Numbered from the stretch's first letter, positions 18,113 to 35,718 are shown. The stretch: DNA of 49,274 nucleotides from a candidate division TA06 bacterium SM23_40 (GCA_001303705.1 LJUI01000025.1:1-49274); one strand, 5' to 3'. The notes: generated by a model from the sequence alone, not told the origin. Program-made: numbers and translations.

Positions 18113-19803
18113 GATTCAGAGTCCCCTATCTGCGCGAAAGCCTCCCGCCTGGTGAGCGGCAGAGCCAGCACGAAGCGGGTATACTCGTTGGGTTTGCTCT
18201 CGACCGAAATGGTGCCCCCGTGCTCCTCCACTATGCGGTGGACGATGGCGAGGCCCAGTCCCGTGCCCTCTCCGCTACCCGAGTAGAAAGGCTCGAAAAT
18301 CCTGGGGTGCTCTTCGGGAGAAATGCCCACACCGTCATCCTCGCACGCGATCACGAGGGCGCTCTCGTCCGGCGACACTGAGACCTCAATCCTGACTGTG
18401 CCGCTCCCTTTGATTGCGCGGAAGGCATTGAGCAGCAGGTTGAAGAGCGCCTGCCGCACGCGCTCGGGATCCGCCTCGAGATGAATCGGTCTGCTCGACA
18501 CGGCGCATTCTACCCTGATCTCATTGCGGTACGCGGGATGAGCCTCAGCCAGCCTTATAGCATCATCGACCACTCCGCTGATGTCGACATCGTAGAACGC
18601 CGGAGGCGTCGATCGTGCGAACCTCAGAAAGTTGTCAATCGTGTCGTTGAGACGATCCGATTCCTTGATGATCAGTTCCATCAGTCTCTTGTGTTCCCCA
18701 CGGAGTTGAAGATCATCCGCGAGCATCTCGATGCATCCCCTGATCGACCCCATCGGATTGCGGATCTCGTGCGCGATGCCGGCGGCGAGCTCTCCCAGTG
18801 CAGCCATCCGATCTGCCAGCCTCAGTCGCTCCTCGATCTCCTTGACCTGTGTGATATCCCGAAATACCGCCATCGCACCATGTCGCCGCCCCTCACGATC
18901 GTACAGGACAGTAGTCGATAGACCGAGCGACCTGGTAGACCCGCCCTCTGTCTGTATATCGACTTCAGCTCGCACCTCCTCAGTCCCATCGCGCACGACG
19001 CTCATCAGATGGTCGCGGAACGGTGCAACTCTCTCGGGCAGCTCTGCCCCGAGCACCTCATCATGGTGAAGACGGCCAGCACATTCGAGGAGCAGTTCCG
19101 CATTCCGATTGAAGTAGACGATCTTCCCATCGAGATCGACCGTGACGAGGCCGCTTCCCATATTCTGGAGGATGTCGTCGGTCGTCAACCGGGCTTCGTG
19201 AAGCTCGCGGACAATCTGCTTCAACTCCACCCCGCTCACACGAAGGCGCTCGGAGAGATACCCCGACAGTGCTGCAACGAGAAAGAAGAAAAGAACGTGG
19301 AGATATGCGCGCAGGAAGATGTGAGCTCCCGGCATGTCGAGGGCGGTCAGGCCAGCGGCGAAGGGCATGACGCCGCTCCGCTCTCCCCAGAGAAGCAGTC
19401 CATATGCGAGCCCGGAGAGGCAAGCCATCACCAATCCGCCGCGCACTGAGAAGACGATGCTTCCGCAAATTATCGTGAGGAAGTAGAGAAGTGAGAAGGA
19501 ACTCTCGGGGCCGCCGGTGAAGTGAATGATACCGGTCTCGAGGACAATATCTGCGACCAGCTGCACATACAGCGTTCCGAGGGCCGATACCCCCATCAAT
19601 AACGCGAGCCACGAACCTATACTGAGAGCGCAGCTCGCTCCGATCAACAGGTAGAGGGGAAGCAGGGAGACCGGGGTCTCTCCCAGATTCAGGATGATGA
19701 TCCCCGTTCCCAATATGACAGAGACGACCAGGGGCCTGCCCGCGAGTAACCACGCAATCCGCCCGGCCGTCTCCCTTCCAGTCAGCGGACTGTCACGCCT
19801 CAT
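18109..19803 (-). CDS. Membrane sensor histidine kinase, PilS-like (6 TM - PAS - HisKA - HATPase)
   Basis: A 564-residue sensor kinase. Residues 20-185 contain six TM helices joined by very short loops, as in PilS, with HFTGGPESSFSLLYFLTII close to the conserved PilS sequence. A linker coiled coil (185-210) leads to a PAS domain (about 212-320; ILQNMGSGLVTVD, VFRDITQ), the H-box AGIAHEIRNPMGSIRG with phospho-acceptor His345, and an HATPase with N-box LFNLLLNAFRAI, G1 EDDGVGI, and G2 GTGLGLAIVHRIVEEHGG. No periplasmic sensor domain is present, so the signal is probably sensed in the membrane; in Pseudomonas PilS this is the pilin itself. The stop overlaps the start of the response regulator (ATGA), and the start lies 24 bases past pilC. 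The PilS assignment combines domain order, TM pattern and context. Confidence 0.92.
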   Translation of the reverse strand: MRRDSPLTGRETAGRIAWLLAGRPLVVSVILGTGIIILNLGETPVSLLPLYLLIGASCALSIGSWLALLMGVSALGTLYVQLVADIVLETGIIHFTGGPESSFSLLYFLTIICGSIVFSVRGGLVMACLSGLAYGLLLWGERSGVMPFAAGLTALDMPGAHIFLRAYLHVLFFFLVAALSGYLSERLRVSGVELKQIVRELHEARLTTDDILQNMGSGLVTVDLDGKIVYFNRNAELLLECAGRLHHDEVLGAELPERVAPFRDHLMSVVRDGTEEVRAEVDIQTEGGSTRSLGLSTTVLYDREGRRHGAMAVFRDITQVKEIEERLRLADRMAALGELAAGIAHEIRNPMGSIRGCIEMLADDLQLRGEHKRLMELIIKESDRLNDTIDNFLRFARSTPPAFYDVDISGVVDDAIRLAEAHPAYRNEIRVECAVSSRPIHLEADPERVRQALFNLLLNAFRAIKGSGTVRIEVSVSPDESALVIACEDDGVGISPEEHPRIFEPFYSGSGEGTGLGLAIVHRIVEEHGGTISVESKPNEYTRFVLALPLTRREAFAQIGDSES

Positions 19804-19827: not shown

Positions 19828-21033
19828 CTAGTGGATCAATGTGACGATCTTGAAGATCGGAAGGTACATGGCAATGACCATTCCGCCGACGATCACCCCC
19901 AGGAAGACGATGATTATCGGCTCGAGAGCGGAAGTCAGGTTCTCAACAGCCTGATCGACCTCCGTATCATAGAAGTCGGCGATCTTGTTCAGCATCTCAT
20001 CGAGGCCGCCCGTGGCCTCTCCGATCGAGATCATCTGCACGACCATGGGAGGGAAGACGCCGACGTTCTCAAGGGGACCAGCGATCGTCGCGCCTTCGCT
20101 GATACTCGCTCTAGCCTCCATTACAGCGTTCTGGACAACTTGGTTCCCTGCGGTCCGTGCTGTAATCTCCAGGGCCTCGAGAATCGAGACCCCGCTCGAG
20201 AGCAGCGTGCCGAGCGTGCGTGAGAACCGGGCGATCGCCGATTTCTGGATCAGCGTCCCCAGGACGGGCACTCTAAGGAGAATACGGTCTAGCGTGAGTC
20301 GACCCCGAGGCGACCGATAGAAGAACCGCAGGCCCACGACCAATGCCACCGCGCCAATGATCCCGGCGATGAACCAATGGCGGACGAAGTTCGATAGTGC
20401 AATCACGATCCTCGTGGGCAGGGGGAGTTCGGCACCCATGCTGATGAACATGTTCGCGAACGTCGGAATGACCGCCACTAGAATGATGGCAGTGGCGGCT
20501 ATAGCGATCGTCACGACGATGGCCGGATAGATCATGGCGCCCTTGATCTTGCGCGCCAGCGCCTCGGCCTTCTCCAGATAGTTGGCGAGCCTCACCAGTA
20601 TGATATCGAGCGCGCCTCCGGCCTCGCCGGCCTCGACCATGTTGACGTATAGATCGGAGAAGACGCGCTTCTGCTTGCGGAGGGCCTCTGCAAGCGTCAT
20701 ACCACCCTCTACATCGTGCATCACCTCGCGCAGGACCTTGCGAAAGGTTTCCTTCTCGACCTGCCTCGACTGGATCTCGAGACATGAGACGAGGGGGAGT
20801 CCGGAATTGATCATCGTGGCGAACTGGCGGGTGAAGACCGCCAGATCACGTGATCTGACCTTGCCGCCGCCAAGCAACGGGAGATGTATCTCCCGCGGCT
20901 TCTCGCGGATCGAACTGACGATGATCTTCCGTGCCCTGAGGGCGGCAACGACGGCTGCCTGATTCTCTGCCACTAGCTCCCCCGACGTGATCTTGCCGGA
21001 GGGCAGTGTCCCCTTCCAGGTGTACGTGGCCAT
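19828..21033 (-). CDS. pilC: Type IV pilus inner-membrane platform protein PilC (GspF family)
   Basis: A 401-residue GspF/PilC protein. The first 60 residues are the PilC N-terminal extension (YTWKGTLPSGKITSGELVAE), followed by two homologous GspF domains, each cytosolic helices plus TM helices: FTRQFATMINSGLPLVSCLE in the first and FSRTLGTLLSSGVSILEAL in the second. TM segments lie near 165-195, 215-240 and at the C-terminus (FLGVIVGGMVIAMYLPIF). The protein forms the inner-membrane platform on which the extension and retraction ATPases act. It begins six bases after pilT and is followed after 24 bases by the PilS-like kinase. Length and motifs are standard, so this is a firm call for PilC over GspF mainly because pilT is next to it. 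Confidence 0.95.
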   Translation of the reverse strand: MATYTWKGTLPSGKITSGELVAENQAAVVAALRARKIIVSSIREKPREIHLPLLGGGKVRSRDLAVFTRQFATMINSGLPLVSCLEIQSRQVEKETFRKVLREVMHDVEGGMTLAEALRKQKRVFSDLYVNMVEAGEAGGALDIILVRLANYLEKAEALARKIKGAMIYPAIVVTIAIAATAIILVAVIPTFANMFISMGAELPLPTRIVIALSNFVRHWFIAGIIGAVALVVGLRFFYRSPRGRLTLDRILLRVPVLGTLIQKSAIARFSRTLGTLLSSGVSILEALEITARTAGNQVVQNAVMEARASISEGATIAGPLENVGVFPPMVVQMISIGEATGGLDEMLNKIADFYDTEVDQAVENLTSALEPIIIVFLGVIVGGMVIAMYLPIFKIVTLIH

Positions 21034-22151: not shown

Positions 22152-23861
22152 TCAGAATGCTGCAGTCTCTCGGAGCACTTCCTCGACGGTCGTGATGCCT
22201 GCTGTGAGCTTCCGCAGGGCATCCTCCCGCAATCCGATCATCCCCTCTTCTCTCGCCTCCTGGGCGATCGCTGCGGTCGACTTCCGCTCAAGTATCATGC
22301 TCTTGATCGTGGGAGATATCGGCATCACCTCGTACAGGCCGATTCGACCACGGTATCCCTTATTGCCACACTCGCCACACCCCCTACCCTTGTACAGCTT
22401 AATTCCTAGGTGCTCCTGCGGTTTCAGGCCGATATCCTCGAGCAGCTTCGGCTCCACCACGATCTCCTCTTTGCAGTTGGAACAGATGCGACGAACGAGA
22501 CGCTGCGCCTGGATCAGGTTGAGTGATGCAGCAACGAGGAATGAATCGATTCCCATATCGATCAGGCGGTTGACGGTGCTCGGTGCGTCGTTCGTGTGGA
22601 TCGTACTGAGGACAAGGTGGCCTGTCAGCGCTGCGCGAATCGCGATCTCGGCTGTCTCGGCATCTCTGATCTCGCCCACCATGATGATGTTCGGCGCCTG
22701 GCGCAAGAACGATCGCAGCACCGACGCGAACGTCAGACCGATGTCTTCGTTCACCTGTACCTGATTGATGCCACGGAGATTGTACTCGATGGGATCCTCA
22801 ACCGTGAGGATGTGCTTATCAGGACTGTTGAGCCGGCTGAGAGCCGAATAGAGTGTGGTCGTCTTCCCGCTGCCCGTCGGGCCGGTGACGAGCACGATGC
22901 CATACGGACTCTCGATCGCCTTGAGGAAGTTCTTGAGCGCCGCCTCCTCGAACCCGAGCTCGGTCATATCGAGCATGAGCCCGCTCTTGTCGAGAATACG
23001 CATCACGATCTTCTCGCCATAGAGGGTGGGAATGACCGAGACCCTGAGGTCGATGAGCTTCTCGTCGACGCGGACCCTGATCCTCCCATCCTGCGGAACG
23101 CGCCGCTCGGCGATGTCGAGATTCGACATTATCTTGACACGCGAGGTGAGGGGAGCGCGGAGACGATGGGGCGGTGACATTACTTCGTGGAGGACACCGT
23201 CGATCCTGAACCGAACGCGCATGACCTTCTCATAAGGTTCGATGTGAATGTCGCTCGCCCCAGACCGCACGCCGTCGGTGATGAGGAAATTGACGAGCTT
23301 GACGACCGGCGTCTCCTGTCCCAGGGCGATAAGCTCTGAGAGGTCCTCCTCCTCCCGCTCGGCCATCTCGCCCGCCTCGAGCACCTCGATGTCCTCACCT
23401 CCCCCCTCCTCTTCTCTGACCGGCGCCAGGTCCTTTCCCACGCCGTAGTGCTTGTTCAGGATTTCCTGGATCGCGGTCTCCGTGGCGACGACAGGCTGGA
23501 CCTCGAGTCCCGTGAGGAACTTGATGTCCTCAAGGGCGAAGAGATCTGTCGGGTTGCCCATAGCGACGGTAAGCAGTCTGCCCACACGCTTCACCGGCAC
23601 AACCTCGTACCGCTGGGCGACCTCCGGGGGAATGAGCCCGATGACCGACTCGTCGAGCGTGGCGGCAGAGAGCTCGACGGCCGGCACATGAAACTGCTCG
23701 CTCAAGAAGCCCGCCAGGCGCTCAGCGGAAATGAAACCCATCCGCACGAGGCTGGAGCCGAGGCGGCCACCAACGGTGTCCTGCGCCTTGAGTGCCTCCT
23801 CCAGCTGCTGCTGGGTGATCAGTTCCGCTTTTACGAGCAGCGCCCCCAGTCGTTCCGCCAC
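22152..23861 (-). CDS. pilB: Type IV pilus / type II secretion extension ATPase, PilB-type (copy 1)
   Basis: A 569-residue GspE/PilB ATPase that drives pilus extension. An MshEN domain (residues 1-140) opens with LGALLVKAELITQQQLEEAL and repeats the RLG-x-x-LV pattern; MshEN domains of this family can bind c-di-GMP. The catalytic core has GASDIHIEP, Walker A GPTGSGKT (327-334), TVEDPIEYNL, GEIRDAETAEIA and the His box HTNDAPSTVNRLID. A tetracysteine zinc site is visible at Cys460, Cys463, Cys495 and Cys498. Before Walker B it reads FLRQAPNIIMVGE, where PilB/GspE proteins, including copy 2, normally have QDP. A glycine/acid-rich linker of about 40 residues follows the MshEN domain. It starts at a GTG with AAAGGAGG eight bases upstream. 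Pilus versus general secretion role cannot be separated by sequence. Confidence 0.94.
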   Translation of the reverse strand: MAERLGALLVKAELITQQQLEEALKAQDTVGGRLGSSLVRMGFISAERLAGFLSEQFHVPAVELSAATLDESVIGLIPPEVAQRYEVVPVKRVGRLLTVAMGNPTDLFALEDIKFLTGLEVQPVVATETAIQEILNKHYGVGKDLAPVREEEGGGEDIEVLEAGEMAEREEEDLSELIALGQETPVVKLVNFLITDGVRSGASDIHIEPYEKVMRVRFRIDGVLHEVMSPPHRLRAPLTSRVKIMSNLDIAERRVPQDGRIRVRVDEKLIDLRVSVIPTLYGEKIVMRILDKSGLMLDMTELGFEEAALKNFLKAIESPYGIVLVTGPTGSGKTTTLYSALSRLNSPDKHILTVEDPIEYNLRGINQVQVNEDIGLTFASVLRSFLRQAPNIIMVGEIRDAETAEIAIRAALTGHLVLSTIHTNDAPSTVNRLIDMGIDSFLVAASLNLIQAQRLVRRICSNCKEEIVVEPKLLEDIGLKPQEHLGIKLYKGRGCGECGNKGYRGRIGLYEVMPISPTIKSMILERKSTAAIAQEAREEGMIGLREDALRKLTAGITTVEEVLRETAAF

Positions 23862-23913
23862 GCCGTCCGCCTCCTTTCGTTCCTTCCCATCCGCTCTGTC
23901 GCGTCAACGCCTC

Positions 23914-25605
23914 CTAGATTACTTTCGTCTCCCGCACAACCTCATCAACCGAGGTGACGCCTGCCTTCAGCTTGAGGATGGCATTATCGTGCAATGTCCG
24001 CAGGCCCTCCCCTTTCCCGACCTGCTCTATTTTCTCGGTGCTATCCCGATTCAATATCATCTCCCGTATGCGGGGCGTGATGCCCATCACCTCGAATATC
24101 CCGATCCTTCCCCGATACCCGGTCCCCGAGCAGTGGGCACAGCCGCGGCCGGCATAGATCTGGGCTCCGTCAAGCGCCGCCGGATCGACGCCCATATCCT
24201 GCAAAACCTCGGGCTTGATGTCGATCGGTTCCTTGCAGTTGGCACAGATCTTCCTCAGCAGCCGTTGCGCCTGGATCAGATTGAGCGAGGATGCGATGAG
24301 AAATGGCTCGACTCCCATGTTGATGAGACGGGTGATCGTCCCGGCAGTGCTGTTGGTGTGAATCGTACTCAGGACGAGGTGGCCCGTCAGGGCCGCCCGG
24401 ATCGCGATTTCCGCGGTCTCCTGATCGCGGATCTCCCCCACCATAATGATGTTCGGGTCCTGCCGCAGGAACGAGCGGAGGGCATCGGCGAATGTGAATC
24501 CGATATCCTCCCTGATCTGAACCTGATTGACTCCGATGAGACTGTACTCGATGGGATCCTCGGCAGTAGTGATGTTGACATCCGGGGTGTTTATCTTGTT
24601 GAGGGCGGCATACAGAGTCGTCGTCTTCCCGCTCCCTGTAGGGCCGGTCACGAGAATGATACCATAGGGAACCTGGATCGCGCGCATGATCCGTTGGTAT
24701 TCGTCCTCCTCGAATCCGAGGGTTGCGAGATCGAACGAGATTGCCGAGCGGTCGAGGACGCGCAGACATATTTTCTCTCCGAACAGAGAGGGGACGGTCG
24801 AGACTCTCAGGTCGACGACCTTACCCCTCACCTTCACTTTGAGCCGGCCATCTTGAGGCAGACGCTTTTCGGCGATGTTCATCTTCGCCATGATCTTGAT
24901 ACGGGAAGTAACGGCGGCCCGCAGGCGAGCGGGCGGCGACATCACTTCGTGGAGATGCCCGTCGATGCAGTAGCGGATCCGTAGTTCCTTCTCGTATGGC
25001 TCGATGTGAAGGTCACTCGATCCCCGGCTGATACCATCTATCAGTATGCTATTGACGAGCTTGACCACCGGCCCGGTCTCGACGGCCAGCGCGATGTCGC
25101 TCACCTCATCGTCCTTCTTCTCCTTGTCGACGAGGGTGAGCTCATCCTCTTTCACCGCCTTCATCACCTGAGAGAGGACATCGGCAGCCTGATAGTACTT
25201 GCCAATCGCTCCCTGGATCAACCCCTCTGATGCGACAGCCGGCCGGACCTCGAAGCCCGTAACGAACTTGATGTCCTCGATGGCGAAGACGTCGCTCGGA
25301 TTCGCCATCGCCACCGTGATAACTTTGCCTACCCTCGAGACCGGAACGGCCTGATATTTCTGGGCGACGTCGGGAGGGAGAAGCTTCAGCACAGCCTCGG
25401 GGATCTCTTTGTACGCGAGATCGACTCCCGGGACGTTATACTGCTTGGCGAGGAACTTCGTGATCTCTACGTCGCTGACGAACCCGAGCTTGACGAGGTT
25501 GAAGCCCAGCCGGCCGCCGTCCCGCTTCTGGGCCTCCAGCGCCTCCTTGAGCTGCTCCTCGGTTATGAGCCCGGCCTCGATGAGCATATCACCTAGTCTC
25601 GGCAT
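23914..25605 (-). CDS. pilB: Type IV pilus / type II secretion extension ATPase, PilB-type (copy 2)
   Basis: A 563-residue GspE/PilB ATPase, paralogous to the gene just downstream of it. The MshEN domain starts MPRLGDMLIEAGLITEEQL, the core carries GSSDLHIEPYEKELRIR, Walker A GPTGSGKTTT, TAEDPIEYSL, FLRQDPNIIMVGEIRD and HTNSTAGTITRLINMG, and the C-domain has a zinc tetracysteine (CANCKEPI and CAHCSGTG). The frame is open to 25704, but the ATG at 25605 is preferred: it has GAGGT just upstream, it aligns with the normal MshEN start, and a near-perfect promoter lies within the longer version. It is the first gene of the long minus-strand run. Keeping two complete PilB-type motors next to one PilT and one PilC suggests that they serve different machines or conditions, which is inference. 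Confidence 0.93.
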   Translation of the reverse strand: MPRLGDMLIEAGLITEEQLKEALEAQKRDGGRLGFNLVKLGFVSDVEITKFLAKQYNVPGVDLAYKEIPEAVLKLLPPDVAQKYQAVPVSRVGKVITVAMANPSDVFAIEDIKFVTGFEVRPAVASEGLIQGAIGKYYQAADVLSQVMKAVKEDELTLVDKEKKDDEVSDIALAVETGPVVKLVNSILIDGISRGSSDLHIEPYEKELRIRYCIDGHLHEVMSPPARLRAAVTSRIKIMAKMNIAEKRLPQDGRLKVKVRGKVVDLRVSTVPSLFGEKICLRVLDRSAISFDLATLGFEEDEYQRIMRAIQVPYGIILVTGPTGSGKTTTLYAALNKINTPDVNITTAEDPIEYSLIGVNQVQIREDIGFTFADALRSFLRQDPNIIMVGEIRDQETAEIAIRAALTGHLVLSTIHTNSTAGTITRLINMGVEPFLIASSLNLIQAQRLLRKICANCKEPIDIKPEVLQDMGVDPAALDGAQIYAGRGCAHCSGTGYRGRIGIFEVMGITPRIREMILNRDSTEKIEQVGKGEGLRTLHDNAILKLKAGVTSVDEVVRETKVI

Positions 25606-25689
25606 GACCTCGTAACCCCGTGTTGACGCTACTAGACCGCTCCCCTCTGCCCGATCACCCCACCCGACCGGGCCACGGTACCTCGACAT

Positions 25690-25718
25690 ATTATAGGAAT
25701 GCATCTGCCTCGTGTCAA
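25690..25718 (-). promoter_or_regulatory. Near-perfect sigma-70 promoter of the pil/polysaccharide gene run
   Basis: On the minus strand TTGACA (25713-25718) and TATAAT (25690-25695) are separated by exactly 17 bases. Both hexamers match the consensus at all six positions. Transcription would start near 25683, about 78 bases before the pilB copy 2 ATG. ATTGGGCCAAT, two ATTGG/CCAAT arms around one base, lies directly upstream of the -35 box (25722-25733) and could be an operator. No sigma-54 type -24/-12 element is seen here. Confidence 0.85.
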
Positions 25719-25762: not shown

Positions 25763-26170
25763 TCACTCGATCCCCTCGCGAGCTCCGCACCGGACGTGCG
25801 GCCGTATCCTCCCGAGGGTCTCCGGTCCGATGCCCCGGATCCTCAGGAGGTCATCGGGACTGCTGAACGGGCCGACCTCGTCTCGATAGGCAATGATGCG
25901 CGACGCAATAACCGGCCCAATCCCCGGCAGCTTCTCCAGTTGTCCCTCCGAGGCTTCATTGATGTCGACGCACTCTCCCTCCTCCACTTCGTTCGACGTC
26001 TCCGCGGGGCGAATGGATCCCGCCGCGCCCCGGCCCTGGCGCACGCCGACCAGATCCGGAGCAAAGGCCGGGTGACTCCGCTTATAGATAAGGATCGCCG
26101 ATCCGAGGAGAAGTCCTCCGATCAGCAGCGCCACGACCTTCTCTTCCCCGGGCGTGAGCCATGGCATCAT
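25763..26170 (-). CDS. ComEA-like helix-hairpin-helix protein
   Basis: A 135-residue protein with one N-terminal TM helix (about residues 10-28, VVALLIGGLLLGSAILIY), a 35-residue linker and a C-terminal double helix-hairpin-helix domain: VDINEASEGQLEKLPGIGPV then IRGIGPETLGRIRPHV. This is the domain order of ComEA, the membrane-bound DNA-binding protein that pulls transforming DNA into the periplasm. The family also includes ComEA-like proteins of unknown role. It ends in DNA-binding GIGP motifs typical of non-specific DNA contact. The ATG overlaps the stop of the M28-type gene (ATGA); a second ATG follows directly. Its nearness to pilT, pilB and pilC fits a DNA-uptake role, but no comEC is in the window. 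Confidence 0.88.
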   Translation of the reverse strand: MMPWLTPGEEKVVALLIGGLLLGSAILIYKRSHPAFAPDLVGVRQGRGAAGSIRPAETSNEVEEGECVDINEASEGQLEKLPGIGPVIASRIIAYRDEVGPFSSPDDLLRIRGIGPETLGRIRPHVRCGAREGIE

Positions 26171-27021
26171 GGAAGATTCCTCTCCCCCTGGGCTTCCTGC
26201 CCGTAGATTACGTGTGTCAGCAATTCCCCGACGATGGCCAGACTCTCCTGACTACACTTGTCTGGAGTATCCTCGAGCGTGTGCCAGTAACGGTAGTCGA
26301 AATCTATGACGAGTACGCACGGGATTCCAGCCCTCAGCAGCGGTATGTGGTCGTCCCAGACCGCGTACTCCACGTCCGGATGGAATGCCTCCAGTCCCAG
26401 ACGGTCTGCCGTGTTCCAGACCAGATCGACCACCGGTGAACAGAGTGCAACCGAATAGTGCTCCTTGTAGATGGCGAGATCGCTGTCGCCGATCATGTCG
26501 ATGACTATGCCGAAGCGGGGCCGATACGCGCCCATATTGGCGGCGAAATGGGTCGATCCGAGAATGTAGCGGTCAATGTCGCCCTCCTGGCCATAGTCCT
26601 CCCCGTCGAATAGAATGATGTCGACGCCTACCGGCGGCGGATACTCGTGGAGGAGCCTGGCGATCTCCAGGAGCACGGCTACTCCTGAGGCACCATCGTT
26701 GGCGCCGAGGATGGGTTGCTCACGAACGAGCGGATCAGGATCCCGATCCGCCCTGGGCCTGGTGTCCCAGTGCGCTCCCAGCATGATCCTCTGCCGTCTG
26801 TCCGGCAAGAACGAAGCGATGATGTTTGTCAGGTCGAATGTCATCCCTGCGTCTTCGTCTGTATATTGGAATGTCTGTTCCTGCACGACTTCAGCAACCT
26901 GGCTCAGTTCGCCTACGAGGAGGCGTCTCGCATCATCGTGTCCCGTCGAGCCGGGGTGTCGCGGTCCGAGTTCGGTTTGTCTGATGAGGTGCCGGTAGGC
27001 CCGCGTCCCGTCGAACGACAG
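26167..27021 (-). CDS. M28-family zinc enzyme, glutaminyl-peptide cyclotransferase-like (start uncertain)
   Basis: A metal-dependent M28 fold: IMLGAHWDTRPRA, GANDGASGVAVLLE, ILFDGEDYGQEGD, DDHIPLLRAGIPCVLVID and YWHTLEDTPDKC give the His/Asp/Glu metal and catalytic residues. AHWDTRP, FDGED and the W-H-T-x-x-D-T end resemble glutaminyl cyclases, which close N-terminal Gln to pyroglutamate, but an aminopeptidase cannot be excluded. The only standard start in frame is GTG 26886. That start would drop about 45 residues that match the family (FDGTRAYRHLIRQTELGPRH, PGSTGHDDARRLLVGEL). The frame continues upstream without an ATG/GTG/TTG to the sprA stop, so I place the start provisionally at a CTG (27021) with GGTGG upstream. 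A frameshift in a lost signal peptide is the alternative. Its stop overlaps the comEA-like start. Confidence 0.75.
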   Translation of the reverse strand: MSFDGTRAYRHLIRQTELGPRHPGSTGHDDARRLLVGELSQVAEVVQEQTFQYTDEDAGMTFDLTNIIASFLPDRRQRIMLGAHWDTRPRADRDPDPLVREQPILGANDGASGVAVLLEIARLLHEYPPPVGVDIILFDGEDYGQEGDIDRYILGSTHFAANMGAYRPRFGIVIDMIGDSDLAIYKEHYSVALCSPVVDLVWNTADRLGLEAFHPDVEYAVWDDHIPLLRAGIPCVLVIDFDYRYWHTLEDTPDKCSQESLAIVGELLTHVIYGQEAQGERNLP

Positions 27022-27099
27022 ATGTGAGCCACCGGATGAGCAGGCGCCGTCGCGATGATGTGAGCAGTACGTACACGCCCCTCTACTTCCTCCTGGTTG

Positions 27100-30000
27100 T
27101 TAGAACTTGAACTCGACAAATACCCTTACCTCGATCGTCTTGAACGTCCGGTCAGCCTGATTGTCCCGTCGCCTCGTGTACTCCCCGCTCAACCCACCCA
27201 CAACACTCGACGAAAAGTTGTAGCTGGCCTGGGGCACGATCGAGAGCGTATTGATATCCACCTCTATAACTGGCGCTGCGGCGAGGCCCTTCTGTACCCT
27301 CGTCCGGACCTGAGTGCTATAGCTGGCCATGAGGGAGAAATCGAGATTTGATGTGAATCTGAGGCGATTGCGCACAAAGGGCAACCGCAGACCGCCCGGT
27401 GCGCTGAAAGAATAGTTTGCAGTGAGACGGATGTTCCTGGTCTCCTCCTGAGAGACTGACGAGATCTGAGTCATCGTGTTGACGTTTTCGACTTCGGTCC
27501 GCGTGTAGTTTGTCGAGAGATTCGTCCCGATCCCCTGTCGCCACCTCGCCTGCCATGCAATAAGTGGAGAGAAGCTGTTTACCTCGGTGATGTAGTCAGA
27601 TGGCTCCCCGACGTAGCCGCGTCGCTCGGTGCGGCGCATATATGAAGAACTCAATGTCGAAGATGTGACGAGCCCCCTGAATATCTGAAATCTCTCCACG
27701 CGGCCCCAGGACAACGAGAGGTCGGGCCACGTCGCCGAATGGCCCTCTCTTGCCCTCCACCCGGCAGTCTCGGCTCTGGAATCTGTGCGATGTGTTGCCA
27801 CACTCACGTTCACCGTACCCATCCGCACCCCGCTCGATAGGCGGTACGAGTTCGATACACTCCTCGAATCCTCCGACAGCCCGCGATAGCCTTCGTACCG
27901 AGGAACGTCGCCGGAGGAGCGCGTCAGGCCGATCTGGTATCTGAGCGACGGGCGATCGAGCAACCCGTACGCCCTCGTCTGGCGATCCTGGGTGTATGAC
28001 GCCTGAGGGCTGGTGATGTTCCGCGACCACTTCTCCGCCTGCATGGCCAGCCAATGGGGGGACCCTGGCCGGGCAGAGGCATCCTTCGCCTCGTCCCGCA
28101 GACCGGTGAAGATGCGGACGAACTCGGGAAAGTTGAGCCCGAGACGCACCTGACTGGTGTTGGCATTACTGGCATTGCGCAGATCGAGAGAATCGGTGAG
28201 GACGCTTCGATTGGGATGATCCTCCGCATATCGTGTCGAATACGAGAACGTATGGCTGAGAATCCGCGTGAGAGTGGGGGAAAACGACGTTGTCACGGTC
28301 TGGGTTCTGTTTACCTCGCTCCCGATGTTCCTGTTGAACCGCCGCTTCTCGAGCTCGAGATCCCTGATCACATTGAGGCTGTAGCTCCCCGTCAGGCTGG
28401 GGAAGGGTCGGACGTCCACCTTGGTGTTGCCCTTCACGGCCCTGGACCGGCTCCTGCTCGTGATCGGTCCTCCCGGGTCGGTCCTGCTCTTCCGCCACTG
28501 CTCGGTGTAGCCGGTGCCGAGAGAGAAGCTCGTTGGTGTGTACAGCAACTCGAGACCGCGCGGGAGACGGAGCGGACTGATACGCGGGCTGTAGGAGTAG
28601 TTCACAGCGGTGGCATAGGTCATGCTCGTATCGACAGACGTTGGCGAATATCCAACGTGCTGGCTCACGCTTCCGGACGCCGTGAGATGGTCGAGGGTGA
28701 GCTGGGCGAATCGATTGAGCGAACGCTTCGGCTTGCGGAACGAAGCACTGATCCTTCGATCGCGTCTCTGTGTGCGCTCCTTCCTCGCCTCGCCTGCCGT
28801 CAACTCAACGTCATCTCCCTCGCCGAAGCGCGGCAGACTCTGGCTCTCATCCCAACTTCCGGAGAGCGGGAGGGTAATCCCCCATGATGCCGGTAGAAAC
28901 CGCTCGAGCTGAAGCGTGCCATCCACATTGAAGCCGAGCCGGGTCGCTGATCTCCCGCGCCCGCCTCCTCCTGTCTGGCGGGCGGCCCAGTCGCTCATGG
29001 AGTAGAAATCGCTCTCACGCCTGTCAACAGTCGCATTCAGCGATAGCAGGTCGGCGAACTTTGTCTCGATCCTCGCCCGGGCAGCGGTGCCGACCCGCCG
29101 CACCACTTCCGTGAGCCGTACGTCATCGACCCACAACTCGCCGCTCACCGGATTCCCACCGGGCTGATCCCGGTTCTCGACGCCCAGGGCCAGCCATTCG
29201 ATGTTCGTCAATGATGGGCTGCCGCGAACCACGTACGGGCCCTCCGTCGCGTAGCGGCTCCCTGTTGAGTCGAGAGGAGTCTCCTGTTTCAGCCTGGTGA
29301 GCTCCCGCAGATCGACAAACAGTTCTTGCCACCCCGACCACGTCACATCGACCTCGTACCCATAGTAGTTCGCCGAGTCCTCTCCCACGCGATAGAAGAA
29401 GTGGGATCCAGAGGCATCTCCGTAGACGTACACCCGTATCTCTCTGTAGTCAGTATAGTCGTCAGAGGTGAACAGAGATCGGTAGGCGAGCCCCCCGTGC
29501 CCGACCTCGATGTCCTGATACTGGAGCACGAGGGAGCCCTCTGTCATGCGCTTGCCTTCGCGATCCACCCCGGGATCGTAGGGAGGCTTGTACTCCGGAT
29601 CCTCCCGGGAATTGACCGTCGCCACTTCGAAGCGCTCGTACTCCTGGACGGGAGCGGCTCCGCCCACAACCGGGATCACGCCTTCATTCTGCCAGCGATT
29701 CCCCACGACCTCGAGGCCGCCGATCAGTACGGTATCCTGCTCAGCCAAGCCATCCAGCCAGAGCCTGGCGAAAATGATATGTTCCCAGTCAGGGGCGCCG
29801 ACAACCGTATCGAGTGCTGCCGTATCCGTGAGTGGTACGCGATAGAGCGTCCACCCTTTCTCGTTCTCCGGTATGGCAACGAACTGCGTGTCTTCGAGAT
29901 CGATAGTGAATTCGAAGTAGTCATTACGCCTATTGAGGCCGTTGTCTCGGTTCAAGTTTTCGGTATCGAGGCGTCGGTTGTTCTCTGTCCGATTGAGTTT

Positions 30001-32802
30001 GAAGTAGTCCTCCGACCGTATCTCCCCCTGGGGGTAGTCATCGTTCCCATCATCGCCCGGGACCTGATCGCCGTCCGCCCCGGCCACCCCGTCGAGACCG
30101 GCGTCCTCGCCTGCCCCCACGTCGAGATAGCCGTTCCGGTTTGCATCTTCGGTATCGAGCACCCCGTTCCAGCCTGCGATCGCGCCGGCAGCCGTCCAGC
30201 GGGGAGCATCTTCGTCGATCTCGGTGCCGAGATCGATGTGAACTCTGCCGCCGTCTCCCTTTACCCACACCTCGAGCAGCCTGGAGTCGGAGAAGTCATA
30301 CCCTCCCGGAGAGATGCACCTGGAGATCCCGCCCCACGATTCCTCTACGATCGGGAGGGCATCTCTCGGGTCTAAGGCGAGGGCGAGCACAAGTCGCTCC
30401 TGCTGGCGATCTTCCTCCGGCAGGCCTGGCTCGATATCGCCGGCCTTCACGCCCTTTGGGTTATACCAGTAGATCCTCCCGAACGTCGACGTGTCCTTCT
30501 GGACGGGAATCGTCCCGTAGCTCCATGCGGTGCGCGCCAGACCGAGTCCGCTCGCCAGCTCCGCACCCTCCATATCATCGACAAACACCTCTCCCCGCGT
30601 GTTCGGATCAGGAAACGAGGCCGCCACCTCCCCCGTTATGTAGAGATGGGATGGTTCCTCAGTCTCAACAAGGGGGAGCAGATCGGCTACCTTGGTGAAG
30701 AGGGCGGGCTCCGCTTCCAGCGTCATATCCGCCTCCCCTAGCAAGATCTGCGTAGGCTCCTGCCCGAGACGCGGCCGTTCCTCGAACGAGCGTTCACTCC
30801 GATACATCCAGGTCGAGCCGACCTGGAACCGATCGGAGAAACGATAGTCAGCCCGGGCACCCAGCAGTGTCTTCTCTCCGAAGGCAAAGAAGGGCTGATA
30901 CTCGTAGTCGATCTCTATCCTGGCGTCCTCGCTTGCGGCCGCCTCTGAGAGCAGGGTGAGGATCCCGGTATCGTAGTCGATGAAATAGCCGGATCCGCGG
31001 CTGAGCCTCAGTCCGTTGACCTTCACCACCTCGCTCTCGGGGAGGATGTTGATGCCGAGAGAGTAGATGGTCTGGACGCTCTTATACCCCACCTCTATCA
31101 CATAGACCTTTCCGTCGTCGAGATCGAGGCTCGTCGAGTCGTAGATGACCGACACCGGATCGGCGAGGATGTCATTCGCAAACGGACGCAGATCCGGGAC
31201 GTATATCTCGGTATCCGCCCCGGCGACGGTGAACCTCAGTGTGTCCGGCGGACCCTGGGCCGGAAAGGCGAGCAGCCCCCGCGTCAGAACGAGGTACCCG
31301 GGCTCGACATCGCCGTCTCCATCGGGGTCGAGGCCGAGAAGGCTCAGGTAGGTGGCCCCCTCCTCGGTCTCGATGAGCTCACCAGCTCCTGACGGATCCT
31401 TCTTGATCTTGATCTCGAGGCTCCCCCCGATGATCCGGCTCGAACCGAGATCGTAGTAATTCTTGAGCGCATAATGCCAGGTGGGAGAACTCGGGTCGGG
31501 AAAACGAGGCTTGAGAAGTTTGAGCATCAGGGTGTCGCTGACGATGCCGCCCACCGTATCCTGCGATGCCGTCGTATACATCACAGCCAGCACATCGTTG
31601 GTGAGACGGCGGTTCATCTCGATTACGTTGTTGACAGGATCGAAGATATAGTCTTCGTCTGCCCCTTCGACCAACCTATAGAAGCTCCCAGTGTAGTAAT
31701 CGAAACTTGTATCCGGCCGCTCGGGGTCGAAGTAAGCCTTGCCGGGGGAGACATTCTGTTCGAGGTCCGTCCGTTCATCCTGATCGTCAACGTACACCTG
31801 CATGAGGGCGAGAGGTTCGACTGTGCCCACCCAGAAAAACCGATTGCTGATGAATTCCCGATCATAGATGGTGAGCCTGTTAAACGTCGCCTGGCCCTCG
31901 AAGGTCTTTTTCTCGGTCCTCCCCTCTTCCTTGCTGGCAATGGCGGTGACCTCCAGCCCGCCGACCTGAGCCCGTCCCTTGATGCCGAACAGCCCGTGGT
32001 GGCTTATCCCTCCCCCGACATACTGAGTGCTCGGGAGCCCGAGCTGCGTGTTTCCGGCCTCGATCTCCTGGACGATCTCATCCTCTTCCCCCTCGTACCG
32101 TATCCGGATCTTGTTCTTGAGTTCAGCCTCCTGCTGGCTGTCGTGATCGACAAAGACATGTATCTTCTCCCCTACCGTCCCCTGCAGATTGAGGAGAAGC
32201 CGCTGCTCCATGTCGAGCTGGGGGAACCGCGAGGGCCTGTTGAATTCGGTGTACACCTCCTCTTCTACGTAGCTGCTCACACCACCGAGCTCGATCCGCT
32301 GACTCCCGTCGACCTTGAGCTGTCCTCCCTGACCGATCACTCCTGCGATCGGCGTCGGAAAGGCGACGGGTATGTCGATATTCGGCACGAGACCGCCCGT
32401 GCCGCCCGTCTCGCCGCGGGCGGTGAGTGTAGTCACAAGCGCACGCCGCCGCGCCTCCCTGAGCCGTCTGCTGGCCCGTTGAGAGACGAACCGATCGAGG
32501 CCGCCGATCGGTCCTACCGCGAGCACCTCACCCCGGTATGTGACAACACGCCGGACAGCGCGCGCCGGCAGGTCGATAGCCACGGAATCCTCTACCCCGT
32601 ATCTGGTGAGCAATGAGAGATCGCGCAGGCGGGCGGGAGATACGCCAAGACCCGGCAGGGACGGGACGGAGAATGGCTCCACGCCGGCGCGAGAGGGCCA
32701 TCGCAGGGCAGGGCCCCCCTGTGCCCGGGGGAGGCCTGCGGATAGTATGAGGAGGGCAGCCGCCGTCCACACTCTGAAGTTATGGGTACCGGGTCGAAGC
32801 AT
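27100..32802 (-). CDS. sprA: SprA homologue, giant outer-membrane cell-surface / type IX secretion translocon protein
   Basis: A 1,900-residue exported protein. A signal peptide (MLRPGTHNFRVWTAAALLIL onward, with possible cleavage at PRA/QGG) precedes a beta-rich body. The SprA N-terminal family segment is clear: GSQRIELGGVSSYVEEEV, NKIRIRYEGEEDEIVQEIEA, GNTQLGLPSTQYVGGGISHH and GLFGIKGRAQVGG. Around residues 940-1000 lies an Asp-rich stretch (DANRNGYLDVGAGEDAG; GDQVPGDDGNDDYPQGE), a possible calcium site. The last 600 residues are amphipathic beta strands rich in Ser, Thr and Arg that end in VEFKF, a beta-barrel-type C-terminus. In Bacteroidota SprA is the outer-membrane pore of type IX secretion and gliding. 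The 1,900 residues are shorter than the Flavobacterium protein (about 2,400). The ATG at 32802 has GGAG nine bases upstream. No other type IX component is in view. Confidence 0.93.
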   Translation of the reverse strand: MLRPGTHNFRVWTAAALLILSAGLPRAQGGPALRWPSRAGVEPFSVPSLPGLGVSPARLRDLSLLTRYGVEDSVAIDLPARAVRRVVTYRGEVLAVGPIGGLDRFVSQRASRRLREARRRALVTTLTARGETGGTGGLVPNIDIPVAFPTPIAGVIGQGGQLKVDGSQRIELGGVSSYVEEEVYTEFNRPSRFPQLDMEQRLLLNLQGTVGEKIHVFVDHDSQQEAELKNKIRIRYEGEEDEIVQEIEAGNTQLGLPSTQYVGGGISHHGLFGIKGRAQVGGLEVTAIASKEEGRTEKKTFEGQATFNRLTIYDREFISNRFFWVGTVEPLALMQVYVDDQDERTDLEQNVSPGKAYFDPERPDTSFDYYTGSFYRLVEGADEDYIFDPVNNVIEMNRRLTNDVLAVMYTTASQDTVGGIVSDTLMLKLLKPRFPDPSSPTWHYALKNYYDLGSSRIIGGSLEIKIKKDPSGAGELIETEEGATYLSLLGLDPDGDGDVEPGYLVLTRGLLAFPAQGPPDTLRFTVAGADTEIYVPDLRPFANDILADPVSVIYDSTSLDLDDGKVYVIEVGYKSVQTIYSLGINILPESEVVKVNGLRLSRGSGYFIDYDTGILTLLSEAAASEDARIEIDYEYQPFFAFGEKTLLGARADYRFSDRFQVGSTWMYRSERSFEERPRLGQEPTQILLGEADMTLEAEPALFTKVADLLPLVETEEPSHLYITGEVAASFPDPNTRGEVFVDDMEGAELASGLGLARTAWSYGTIPVQKDTSTFGRIYWYNPKGVKAGDIEPGLPEEDRQQERLVLALALDPRDALPIVEESWGGISRCISPGGYDFSDSRLLEVWVKGDGGRVHIDLGTEIDEDAPRWTAAGAIAGWNGVLDTEDANRNGYLDVGAGEDAGLDGVAGADGDQVPGDDGNDDYPQGEIRSEDYFKLNRTENNRRLDTENLNRDNGLNRRNDYFEFTIDLEDTQFVAIPENEKGWTLYRVPLTDTAALDTVVGAPDWEHIIFARLWLDGLAEQDTVLIGGLEVVGNRWQNEGVIPVVGGAAPVQEYERFEVATVNSREDPEYKPPYDPGVDREGKRMTEGSLVLQYQDIEVGHGGLAYRSLFTSDDYTDYREIRVYVYGDASGSHFFYRVGEDSANYYGYEVDVTWSGWQELFVDLRELTRLKQETPLDSTGSRYATEGPYVVRGSPSLTNIEWLALGVENRDQPGGNPVSGELWVDDVRLTEVVRRVGTAARARIETKFADLLSLNATVDRRESDFYSMSDWAARQTGGGGRGRSATRLGFNVDGTLQLERFLPASWGITLPLSGSWDESQSLPRFGEGDDVELTAGEARKERTQRRDRRISASFRKPKRSLNRFAQLTLDHLTASGSVSQHVGYSPTSVDTSMTYATAVNYSYSPRISPLRLPRGLELLYTPTSFSLGTGYTEQWRKSRTDPGGPITSRSRSRAVKGNTKVDVRPFPSLTGSYSLNVIRDLELEKRRFNRNIGSEVNRTQTVTTSFSPTLTRILSHTFSYSTRYAEDHPNRSVLTDSLDLRNASNANTSQVRLGLNFPEFVRIFTGLRDEAKDASARPGSPHWLAMQAEKWSRNITSPQASYTQDRQTRAYGLLDRPSLRYQIGLTRSSGDVPRYEGYRGLSEDSRSVSNSYRLSSGVRMGTVNVSVATHRTDSRAETAGWRAREGHSATWPDLSLSWGRVERFQIFRGLVTSSTLSSSYMRRTERRGYVGEPSDYITEVNSFSPLIAWQARWRQGIGTNLSTNYTRTEVENVNTMTQISSVSQEETRNIRLTANYSFSAPGGLRLPFVRNRLRFTSNLDFSLMASYSTQVRTRVQKGLAAAPVIEVDINTLSIVPQASYNFSSSVVGGLSGEYTRRRDNQADRTFKTIEVRVFVEFKF

Positions 32803-32826
32803 CCCCGTCACTCCGCCAAGCAACAT

Positions 32827-32867
32827 GGCCGGGTTTGTCCGAAGGGAAATCCCCAGACAGCCCGGCC
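32827..32867 (-). other. Strong nested hairpin in the sprA leader, just upstream of the ribosome-binding site
   Basis: On the minus strand GGCCGGG pairs with CCCGGCC (7 bp, 32827-32867), and the enclosed sequence can pair further (TGTC with GACA, GGG with CCC). The stem ends about 24 bases before the sprA ATG; a GGAG Shine-Dalgarno lies between. It is a candidate translational or attenuator-type control element. No U-run follows, so it is unlikely to be a simple terminator. It matches no riboswitch that I recognise. Confidence 0.5.
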
Positions 32868-33107
32868 ATATATGCAACTCACGACGGCCCCTCACGAGGC
32901 CCCGATGAGCAGCTCGAAGCTGTCGAAGGATGACATGTGCCGCCGGTGCGCCCGGGCGGGCCGCCCTCCGATAGCTGCGGCCGCCTGTGACGTTCCCACG
33001 ACTGCGCGCTTCTACACGATCAAACCTTCAACAGACTTCTATACTGAACCTCCGCTCTATCTCGTGGAACTACAGCATGTCGACAACCCTATGCCACCCA
33101 ATTAATT

Positions 33108-33136
33108 AGTATAGTGCCGGAACGCGGATCTGTCAA
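33108..33136 (-). promoter_or_regulatory. Sigma-70 promoter for sprA
   Basis: On the minus strand TTGACA (33131-33136) is followed after 17 bases by TATACT (33108-33113). The -35 box is perfect and the -10 has one mismatch. Transcription would begin near 33101, which gives a leader of about 300 bases before the sprA ATG at 32802. An AT-rich AATTAATT lies just downstream of the -10. The intergenic stretch 32803-33311 holds no convincing gene on either strand: only this promoter, the lptF promoter and the leader hairpin. Confidence 0.75.
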
Positions 33137-33220
33137 CCCTGAAGGCCGGGAGGCCCGACAACGCATGAGAATCCTAGCAGATCGAACGAGGGCAGGCAAG
33201 CAAAATCGTGACCTGGCCTC

Positions 33221-33249
33221 TTGCGCCCCCCGTCACCTTCGAGTATACT
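33221..33249 (+). promoter_or_regulatory. Candidate promoter for lptF-lptG
   Basis: TTGCGC (33221-33226) and TATACT (33244-33249) are 17 bases apart. The -10 has one mismatch to consensus, the -35 matches only at its first three bases. The start site would be near 33256, about 56 bases before the ATG at 33312. It lies back to back with the sprA promoter. Confidence 0.45.
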
Positions 33250-33311
33250 TCGACTCGGATCGGCCTGACCGGATCCCAATAGTCCCCAATCACCAATCCC
33301 CGGGGAATCGT

Positions 33312-34604
33312 ATGAGATACTCGATAGTCTCCTGGTATGTGCTCCGAGAACACCTCGTGCCGTTCGTACTCGGACTTCTCGTGTTGACGTTCATTCTCCT
33401 CATGAATCGGATCTTCACCCTGATCGATCTCATCGTCGGCAAGGGTCTGGCACCTCTCGTCGTGCTCCAGGTCTTTGTGCTCAGCCTCCCCTTCATACTG
33501 GCTCTCACTGTTCCGATGGCTGTCCTCGTCGCCAGCTTGATGGCATTCGGGAGGTTAGCGCAGGATTCCGAAATCGTGGCGATGAAGGCGAGCGGCATCG
33601 CTTTCTGGAGGCTGACGATCCCGGTACTGACGGCGGCGACGTTCCTGGCTCTGTTCATGGTCTACTTCAACAACCACATACTTCCTGAATCGAACCACCA
33701 GGTGAAGAACTTGATGATCGATATCTCTCAGAAACGGCCATCGGTCAAGCTTCGAGAGATGATTTTCATACCGGATTTCGAGGGGTACAAGGTCTTCTTC
33801 ACGCGCATGAACGCCCGTACTTCCCGCATTTTCGGCGTCACCGTGTACCAGGAGCAGAAAAACGGCAAGCCTCGCGTCATCTCGGCTCGTGAAGGACAAC
33901 TCCGCTTCTCCGGCGGCGGCAGTCTCTTCACCATCGACCTGTTCGACGGTGAGATCAGTGACGTCGACAAGGAGGACCCGACCCGGAGCCGCCTGTTGAC
34001 GTTCGACCGTCACACCATTAATATCCCCATCGATACCGAGCTTGTGCGACAGGAGCGGGAGTTCCGCAGCGACCGCGAGCTCAGCGCCCGGGCGATGATG
34101 ACGCGGGTGGAGAATCTGAGGACCGAGATCGACAAGGAGAGCGAGAAGCTGTCCGACCTTCAGGCGGTCGCCCTATCGGACTCGCTCGGTCCGAACCAGG
34201 ATGCCCCCGCAAAGATCGACCTCCAGATCGACCAGACCAACAGGCGAATTGAACGGCGCCGGGCAGAGATCAGTCGGTATCTCGTAGAGATTCACAAGAA
34301 GTATTCGATACCGTTTGCCTCCCTCGCATTCGTGCTCGTGGGCGCTCCCGTCGCCGTGCTGGCACGAAAGGGCGGCACCGGAATGGGGTTCGGCCTCTCC
34401 ACGTGTTTTTTCATAGTCTACTATGTCGCACTGGTAGGAGGAGAAGAGGTAGCTGACCGGCGTATCGTATCGCCGCTCATCGCGATGTGGGCACCGAACG
34501 TCCTCCTGGCTCTTGCGGGAGCGGTTATGATCGCACACGTAAGCCTCGAGGCCGACTGGCGATTCTGGAGGCACCTGGGGCGGCAATCTAACAGAAGAGC
34601 ATGA
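33312..34604 (+). CDS. lptF: LPS export permease, LptF/LptG family (first gene)
   Basis: A 430-residue permease with TM helices near residues 15-40, 55-80, 100-120 at the N-terminus and three near the C-terminus (FASLAFVLVGAPVAVLARKG, FIVYYVALVGG, MWAPNVLLALAGAVMI), enclosing a large periplasmic beta-jellyroll domain. LptF and LptG form the membrane part of the LptB2FG transporter that extracts LPS from the inner membrane. Family motifs are TLIDLIVGKGL, IVAMKASGIAFWRL and GAPVAVLARKGGTGMGFG. A charged coiled coil (about residues 255-325) is inserted before the last TM group. The frame is open from 33114, but ATG 33312 has GGGGAA upstream and gives the normal protein start. The following permease starts one base after its stop. 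Which of the two is F or G is a judgement by order. Confidence 0.9.
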   Translation: MRYSIVSWYVLREHLVPFVLGLLVLTFILLMNRIFTLIDLIVGKGLAPLVVLQVFVLSLPFILALTVPMAVLVASLMAFGRLAQDSEIVAMKASGIAFWRLTIPVLTAATFLALFMVYFNNHILPESNHQVKNLMIDISQKRPSVKLREMIFIPDFEGYKVFFTRMNARTSRIFGVTVYQEQKNGKPRVISAREGQLRFSGGGSLFTIDLFDGEISDVDKEDPTRSRLLTFDRHTINIPIDTELVRQEREFRSDRELSARAMMTRVENLRTEIDKESEKLSDLQAVALSDSLGPNQDAPAKIDLQIDQTNRRIERRRAEISRYLVEIHKKYSIPFASLAFVLVGAPVAVLARKGGTGMGFGLSTCFFIVYYVALVGGEEVADRRIVSPLIAMWAPNVLLALAGAVMIAHVSLEADWRFWRHLGRQSNRRA

Positions 34605-34605
34605 G

Positions 34606-35718
34606 ATGTCACGACGCTTCCTGCCTGCGCGAATTCTAGACCGATATCTTGCCTCGCAATTTCTGCGCTACCTGCTCCTGGCACTCATCGCCTTCGTGCT
34701 CGTCTATGCGGTGGTCGACCTGTTCGAGAAGCTCGATCGTTTTATCGACCGACAGGTGGGACCGCTCGAGATCGCCTTCTTCTACCTCCTCCAAGTCCCG
34801 TATATCACAGTACTGGTCGTTCCCGTCGCGGTACTTCTCTCATCGTTTTTCTCAGTGGGGCAGCTCGTCAGGCACAACGAACTCATCGCGATGAAGTGTT
34901 CCGGGATCAGCCTATACCGGATTCTTGCACCCCTGCTCATACTCGGTTTCGGCACCAGCATCGTAGTCCTCTGCCTCGACGAACTCGTTGTCCCTCGCGC
35001 TAACCGCCGCAAGGCGTCGTTCGAACGCCAGGCGATCGAAGGCAGGCCGCCCATCGATTACTCGAGGAGAAAGAATATCTACTACTACGGGATGGGCGGG
35101 CGGATGTACTACATCGGCTCGTTCGACGGCAACCGCCAGATGATACGCGACGTCGTAATCCATGAGTATACGAGGGCAGGTGCTATGGCGCGACGGATCG
35201 ACGCCAGAGCGGCCGTATGGAGCAATGGCCGATGGACGTTCCGCGACGGATTCCTGAGAACATTCGACGAACAGGGCACCGAATTGCCCGACTCATCGTA
35301 CCCGTTCTCGACTCTGGTAATCCCGGAATTGCAGGAGACGCCCGATGATTTCGCCAAACGGGAGGAAGATCCAGCGGAGATGAATTTCTGGGAGCTGCGG
35401 CACTACATCTCGAAGTTGAGGGGCGGGGGCGCGGATGTCCACAAGGAGCTAGTGGAACTCTATCTCAAAACGGCTTTTCCTTTCGCCAATCTGATCATCC
35501 TTCTCTTCGGTGCCCCCCTATCGAGCAACATGCGCCACAGCGGGTTCGCGCTCGGGTTCGGAGCCAGCCTCTTCGTCTGTTTCTTCTACTGGGGATTCAT
35601 CCAGACCGGCAGGGCCCTCGGACACAACGGCACCATCTCGCCGTTCATTGCCGCCTGGATGCCGAATATCCTCTTCGGGGCGGCGGGGATCGTCCTCCTC
35701 CTGAAAGTGAAAAAGTGA
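34606..35718 (+). CDS. lptG: LPS export permease, LptF/LptG family (second gene)
   Basis: A 370-residue permease with the same layout as its neighbour: N-terminal TM helices (FLRYLLLALIAFVLVYAVVD, VPYITVLVVPVAVLLSSFFS), the family motif ELIAMKCSGISLYRILAP, a periplasmic domain of about 150 residues (NIYYYGMGGRMYYIGSFDG), and three C-terminal TM helices. LFGAPLSSNMRHSGFALGFG matches the cytosolic loop. It lacks the long coiled-coil insert of the first gene. ATG follows the lptF stop after one base, so the two are surely cotranscribed. The partner ATPase lptB and the periplasmic lptC/lptA genes are at 45.5-47.8 kb on the other strand. The gene ends two bases before the convergent ahcY gene ends. 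Confidence 0.9.
   Translation: MSRRFLPARILDRYLASQFLRYLLLALIAFVLVYAVVDLFEKLDRFIDRQVGPLEIAFFYLLQVPYITVLVVPVAVLLSSFFSVGQLVRHNELIAMKCSGISLYRILAPLLILGFGTSIVVLCLDELVVPRANRRKASFERQAIEGRPPIDYSRRKNIYYYGMGGRMYYIGSFDGNRQMIRDVVIHEYTRAGAMARRIDARAAVWSNGRWTFRDGFLRTFDEQGTELPDSSYPFSTLVIPELQETPDDFAKREEDPAEMNFWELRHYISKLRGGGADVHKELVELYLKTAFPFANLIILLFGAPLSSNMRHSGFALGFGASLFVCFFYWGFIQTGRALGHNGTISPFIAAWMPNILFGAAGIVLLLKVKK

Follow-up and report, generated by a model that had tools for sequence, protein, structure and literature searches.

Direct pairing of sprA with a predicted glutaminyl cyclase gene in a candidate division TA06 bacterium and in phyla outside Bacteroidota

The sprA locus and its gene neighborhood

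The window analyzed here is a stretch of 49,274 nucleotides from the candidate division TA06 bacterium SM23_40 (GCA_001303705.1 LJUI01000025.1:1-49274). In it, a gene for the T9SS outer-membrane translocon SprA is followed by an M28-family gene (Table 1). The identity of SprA was established by a profile search, in which the TIGR04189 score was far above the cut-off of 200 bits, and its product also has a Pfam match to the SprA_N domain. The probable start of sprA is the ATG at 32802 within the open reading frame 27100-32895(-), and its TAA stop occupies positions 27102-27100. The frame of the M28 gene is open on the same strand from 27099 to the stop at 26167. The arrangement proposed in an earlier sequence-only reading, namely sprA directly followed by a glutaminyl-cyclase-like M28 gene, is therefore what we find.

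Upstream of sprA there is a divergent lptF and lptG pair, and LptF/G genes are likewise divergent upstream of sprA in two KSB1 loci (L050 and L053). Downstream of the M28 gene, referred to below as the glutaminyl cyclase (QC) gene, comes a ComEA-like gene, whose profile score is below the comEA cut-off, and then two genes for PilB-type ATPases along with other pilus genes. The type IV pilus cluster that begins directly 3' of the ComEA-like gene includes tandem PilB-type ATPases, a PilC-like T2SSF protein and a PilS-like kinase.

Table 1. Coordinates of the features at and around the sprA-QC pair in the window
Feature	Position	Strand	Basis and remarks
Type IV pilus cluster genes	18109-19803, 19828-21033, 22152-25704	all (-)	tandem PilB-type ATPases, PilC-like T2SSF, PilS-like kinase
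ComEA-like helix-hairpin-helix gene	25763..26170	(-)	HHH_3 1.9e-21; start overlaps QC stop (ATGA)
Type II (M28) QC, complete catalytic domain (LSFDGTRAY... to stop)	26167..27021	(-)	PF04389 1.1e-31; AlphaFold2 pLDDT 95.4
Probable QC N-terminus, other frame, GTG start, VYVLLTSSRRRLLIRWLTS	27022..27076	(-)	frame log-odds
Shine-Dalgarno-like AGGAGG just 3' of sprA stop	27089..27094	(-)	sequence
sprA, T9SS outer-membrane translocon	27100..32802	(-)	TIGR04189 515 bits; SprA_N PF14349; ORF extendable to 32895
SprA signal peptide if cut at PRA/QGG; Pro at -3	32722..32802	(-)	translation; tentative
lptF + lptG	33114..35718	(+)	PF03739; divergent, upstream of sprA; synteny family 13

The signal peptide of SprA can be read as MLRPGTHNFRVWTAAALLILSAGLPRA followed by QGG. 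A cut between Ala and Gln at this point had been suggested earlier, with the reservation that Pro occupies position -3. Both the PRA/QGG sequence and the Pro are there, but our home-made scorer puts the cut at PRAQG/GPA instead, so that Gln at +1 of the window SprA is tentative. Gln also follows a plausible cut in SprA of six relatives (L053, L054, L077, L084, L100 and L113).

Identity and start of the glutaminyl cyclase

The catalytic domain encoded by the M28 gene is intact: it comprises 284 residues with all of the zinc-site residues in place. When it was searched against the PDB sequences, Bacteroidota QCs and QC-like entries were matched at 1e-46 to 1e-52, compared to 1e-8 for aminopeptidases. 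The same relationship was seen for the fold. The AlphaFold2 model of the domain gave Z-scores of 44.8 with BtQC, 44.0 with TfQC, 43.4 with PgQC and 39.3 with F. ruber QC, whereas comparison with aminopeptidase structures gave about 31. Structure prediction thus placed the protein among the known glutaminyl cyclases, Bacteroidota QCs being its best PDB matches (Z 43-45).

The ligands of the single zinc and the catalytic residues are all present (D135, D168, H273, E167 and D201, corresponding to D159, E202, H330, E201 and D248 of HsQC). Residues that part QCs from aminopeptidases have been defined previously (PMC7948796): the residue after the first zinc Asp is Gly or Ser in QCs rather than Asn or Asp, and a Trp precedes the His ligand. 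By these criteria, the protein carries QC-type features, having Asp135-Gly136 and Trp272-His273 at the two diagnostic positions along with Glu167-Asp168 and Asp201. Seven residues are invariant in 18 aligned sequences (Asp135, Glu167, Asp168, Asp201, Asp249, Asp250 and His273). The pocket-lining Trp (HsTrp207/PgTrp193) is replaced by Tyr178 at the aligned position, where relatives have other residues too; we counted this Trp as a lining residue and not as a family-defining one. Judging by its residues and predicted fold, the window M28 gene is a type II glutaminyl cyclase, with predicted activity, in agreement with the sequence-only reading. An active site of the aminopeptidase type was also looked for, and the residues found were of the QC type; on residues and fold, an aminopeptidase identity of the M28 protein was rejected.

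In the QC frame 5' of the catalytic domain, no ATG, GTG or TTG was found up to position 27099. There is, however, a GTG at 27076, preceded by the Shine-Dalgarno sequence AGGAGG (27094-27089), in a frame different from that of the catalytic domain. Over the first ~19 codons, the coding log-odds are 0.004 for the GTG frame versus -0.558 for the QC frame. With the probable N-terminus in the GTG frame, the reading frame would have to change ahead of the catalytic domain. The QC reading frame in this assembly holds no export signal. Most QC relatives have lipoprotein-like or secretory N-termini, whereas that of the window QC is out of frame. The start region, then, represents either a small error in the draft or a non-exported copy; the periplasmic location of QC in the window organism is a presumed one.

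Distribution of the sprA-QC pair and the T9SS gene set

We looked for the pair in a panel of 145 genomes, which are kin of the window organism at the domain level only. QC is present in 34 of them, the window's own genome included, and in 17 of these 34 a SprA match passes the curated cut-off as well. Of these 17, 16 were assessable, and in 14 the QC gene comes right after sprA in the same orientation (G000, G001, G006, G009, G025, G051, G054, G061, G066, G069, G074, G099, G117 and G144, with G025 and G061 judged by coordinates and frame lengths). The genes are not neighbors in G053 and G120; G055 was left out of the count because of too short contigs. In a 59-genome panel, QC and SprA were found together more often than expected, QC being present in 9/14 SprA-positive genomes versus 11/45 others (p = 0.01). 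The M28 QC was absent from five SprA-positive genomes of this panel, and a type I QC, tried as the alternative partner, turned up in only one of these five; QC is thus not indispensable for SprA.

Among 80 named QC loci, sprA is directly upstream of QC in 37. Since these loci were chosen by similarity to the window QC, 37/80 is not a measure of prevalence; at least one organism is shared with the panel (the KSB1 genome G001, locus L050), and in 6 of the 43 other loci the upstream sequence is too short to judge. The paired loci come from Marinimicrobia (23), Calditrichota (3), Zixibacteria (3), KSB1 (2), Eisenbacteria (2), one Bacteroidota-labelled MAG and three unlabelled MAGs. The sequence-only reading had supposed that the maturation partner travels with the translocon, possibly outside Bacteroidota, and the neighborhood does recur in at least five named phyla. 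Conversely, the pair is absent from the Bacteroidetes, Ignavibacteria, Kryptonia, Balneolales and Rhodothermaceae loci among the 80, although those genomes have both genes. Altogether, the pairing of sprA and QC is far from chance. The Bacteroidota-labelled MAG with the pair (L061) differs in this respect from other Bacteroidota loci, and its label is perhaps wrong. Some close relatives of the window QC belong to Acidobacteriota, Aminicenantes, Armatimonadota, Bacillota and Gemmatimonadota MAGs (L045, L046, L089, L090, L096 and L114), and no SprA match was found in the genomes of these six loci.

In most Marinimicrobia loci, the pair is part of a wider block. It runs from rdgB through sprA and QC, in some cases with prmA next, to genes for a surface-type protein of 388 aa and for a propeller protein that matches FlgD_ig weakly, and on to one or two PorV-family genes. 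Pieces of this block are found again in Calditrichota and KSB1. Examples of the Marinimicrobia block are L075:9001-18000, L066, L073 and L084; a polysaccharide deacetylase closes the block in some loci, and the 388-aa family has almost no domain match.

The window genome has a T9SS outer-membrane set made up of SprA, the PorV family, a PorU-like C25 protease and CTD cargo. Besides SprA, we found 10 PorV-family, 11 C25 and 63 CTD-cargo (TIGR04183) matches; three control genomes without SprA gave 0 PorV and CTD matches. The PorU-like C25 protease gene adjoins a PorV-family gene (contig C62:11996-15249). Neighboring PorU-like C25 and PorV genes were also seen in many other SprA-bearing panel genomes. 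For the motor protein GldL, the model gave no match in the window genome, nor did it give one in the two Bacteroidota control genomes.

N-terminal glutamine and the possible role of the pair

In Bacteroidetes, QC and T9SS occur together with the Q-rule (PMC5837995), and published values for Gln at +1 lie above 48% for all but two species, or 332 of 334. To the window genome we applied a home-made signal-peptide predictor, which uses a length prior, is blind to Gln at +1 in its score and excludes Pro and Cys at that position. It was run on controls and on about 911 kb of the window genome, or roughly one third. The proportion of predicted signal peptides with Gln at +1 is 11/84 in the window genome (13%, 95% CI 7-22%), 11/17 in the Bacteroidota control and 2/22 in E. 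coli. Against the Bacteroidota control the difference is significant (p = 2.6e-5), against E. coli it is not (p = 1), and therefore the window organism has no Bacteroidota-type genome-wide Q-rule, as far as this rough predictor goes. With a first scorer, which cut too early, Gln at +1 had been lower both in the controls and in the window genome; its replacement left the verdict unaltered. T9SS cargo shows no clear Gln excess either: about 17 of the 25 CTD-cargo genes within the stretches read gave usable signal peptides, of which about 4 could expose Gln. Other holders of the pair vary, the samples being small and the sites approximate. Gln at +1 reaches about 24-40% in Marinimicrobia (16/66), KSB1 (3/9) and Calditrichota (4/10) and was seen in 6/18 for G054; it is low in Zixibacteria (2/25 and 1/10, or 8-10%) and in G069 (0/8). 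One genome with QC but no SprA (G012, stretches L194-L203) has Gln at +1 in 7/25 predicted signal peptides.

How, then, might the pair be explained? In the explanation we favor, SprA and QC would make up a conserved two-gene unit within a T9SS working outside Bacteroidota, with QC being a zinc enzyme located in the cell envelope. Once signal peptidase I has exposed N-terminal Gln, QC would convert it to pyroglutamate in a restricted group of exported proteins. These substrates would probably include outer-membrane T9SS parts, for example SprA in some lineages, and the pyroglutamate cap might shield exported proteins from aminopeptidases. In the window organism such capping would not have grown into a genome-wide Q-rule, unlike in Bacteroidota. 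As its most likely function, at about even odds, QC would cap the N-terminal Gln of a limited range of exported proteins and be tied to T9SS by co-expression with sprA; its enzyme activity, substrates and protective role we infer. The broader proposal, in which the pair is a functional T9SS unit in several non-Bacteroidota phyla, QC caps a dedicated T9SS/outer-membrane set and the Bacteroidota Q-rule is a later expansion, is only tentative and rather less likely.

Among the competing explanations, neutral retention is the most plausible, though still improbable: sprA and QC might have been kept together by descent or lateral transfer with no joint function. This would fit the presence of the housekeeping genes rdgB and prmA in the block in some phyla. 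Moreover, the QC tree, too weakly resolved for dating the sprA-QC linkage, allows a single old origin of the QC block. On the other hand, outer neighbors are swapped between phyla while sprA-QC stays, at least two changes of the adjacency label are needed on the QC tree, and PorV-family genes lie within the Marinimicrobia block. Somewhat less probable is a QC that is broken or non-exported in the window organism owing to the frame change near its start, the pair being functional in relatives only. The lack of an in-frame start before the domain and the better coding of the GTG frame upstream speak for it, as do the absence of a type I QC as a substitute and the low Gln at +1. Yet the domain has kept its full length and zinc site, and a one-base assembly error in a draft of 189 contigs would give an identical picture.

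Still less can be said for an M28 aminopeptidase that trims secreted proteins without cyclizing Gln, a reading we regard as quite unlikely. The M28 family itself, a fold near that of aminopeptidases and the Tyr in the pocket would be compatible with it; however, both sequence and structure are much nearer to QCs, the zinc site has Asp-Gly and not Asp-Asn/Asp, the WHT motif is present and the third zinc ligand is Asp as in Bacteroidota QCs. The least likely of all is a full Bacteroidota-type Q-rule in the window genome with QC as the general maturation enzyme. QC is indeed present, the frequency of Gln at +1 is above the 2.9% Gln content of the proteins themselves, and there are clear sites such as TAGA/QII and AASA/QQR. 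Nevertheless, the frequency is equal to that of E. coli and far from both the Bacteroidota control and the published Bacteroidetes values, and any allowed site with Q behind it occurs in 26% of cases versus 24% for E. The Gln enrichment at +1, whose absence the sequence-only reading had named as a refutation, is thus not borne out.

Compared with known systems, the window QC shares with Bacteroidota type II QCs (PgQC PG2157, TfQC and BtQC) the fold, the Asp/Asp/His zinc ligands, the catalytic Glu and the WHT and DDH motifs, and it differs in having Tyr where their pocket has Trp. Envelope anchoring is usual in its relatives, as in the Bacteroidota enzymes. The P. gingivalis QC gene, which is essential, is the first gene of an operon that also contains PG2158 and hemG (PMC10653852), whereas the window QC follows sprA. 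The secretion set resembles the T9SS of P. gingivalis and Flavobacterium in SprA/Sov, the PorV family, the PorU-like C25 protease beside PorV and CTD cargo, but differs in the linkage of sprA to QC. Type II QCs outside Bacteroidota are already known, with QC-fold structures in the PDB from Fimbriiglobus ruber (7d1b) and Acidobacteriales (7d18), and so are T9SS parts outside this phylum. For the sprA-QC linkage, we found no account in the open-access papers covered by our search. Co-occurrence of the Q-rule and T9SS was noted earlier and then set aside (PMC5837995, PMC10653852). Against the explanation favored here, secretion by the T9SS of P. gingivalis is not under the control of pyroglutamate (PMC5837995). 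The tight link of QC to the T9SS pore gene in several phyla brings a functional QC-T9SS tie back into view. The phyla with the pair may also be the places where specific QC substrates are not hidden by a genome-wide Q-rule. In addition, outer-membrane T9SS sets are now seen in phyla outside the range given by some papers.
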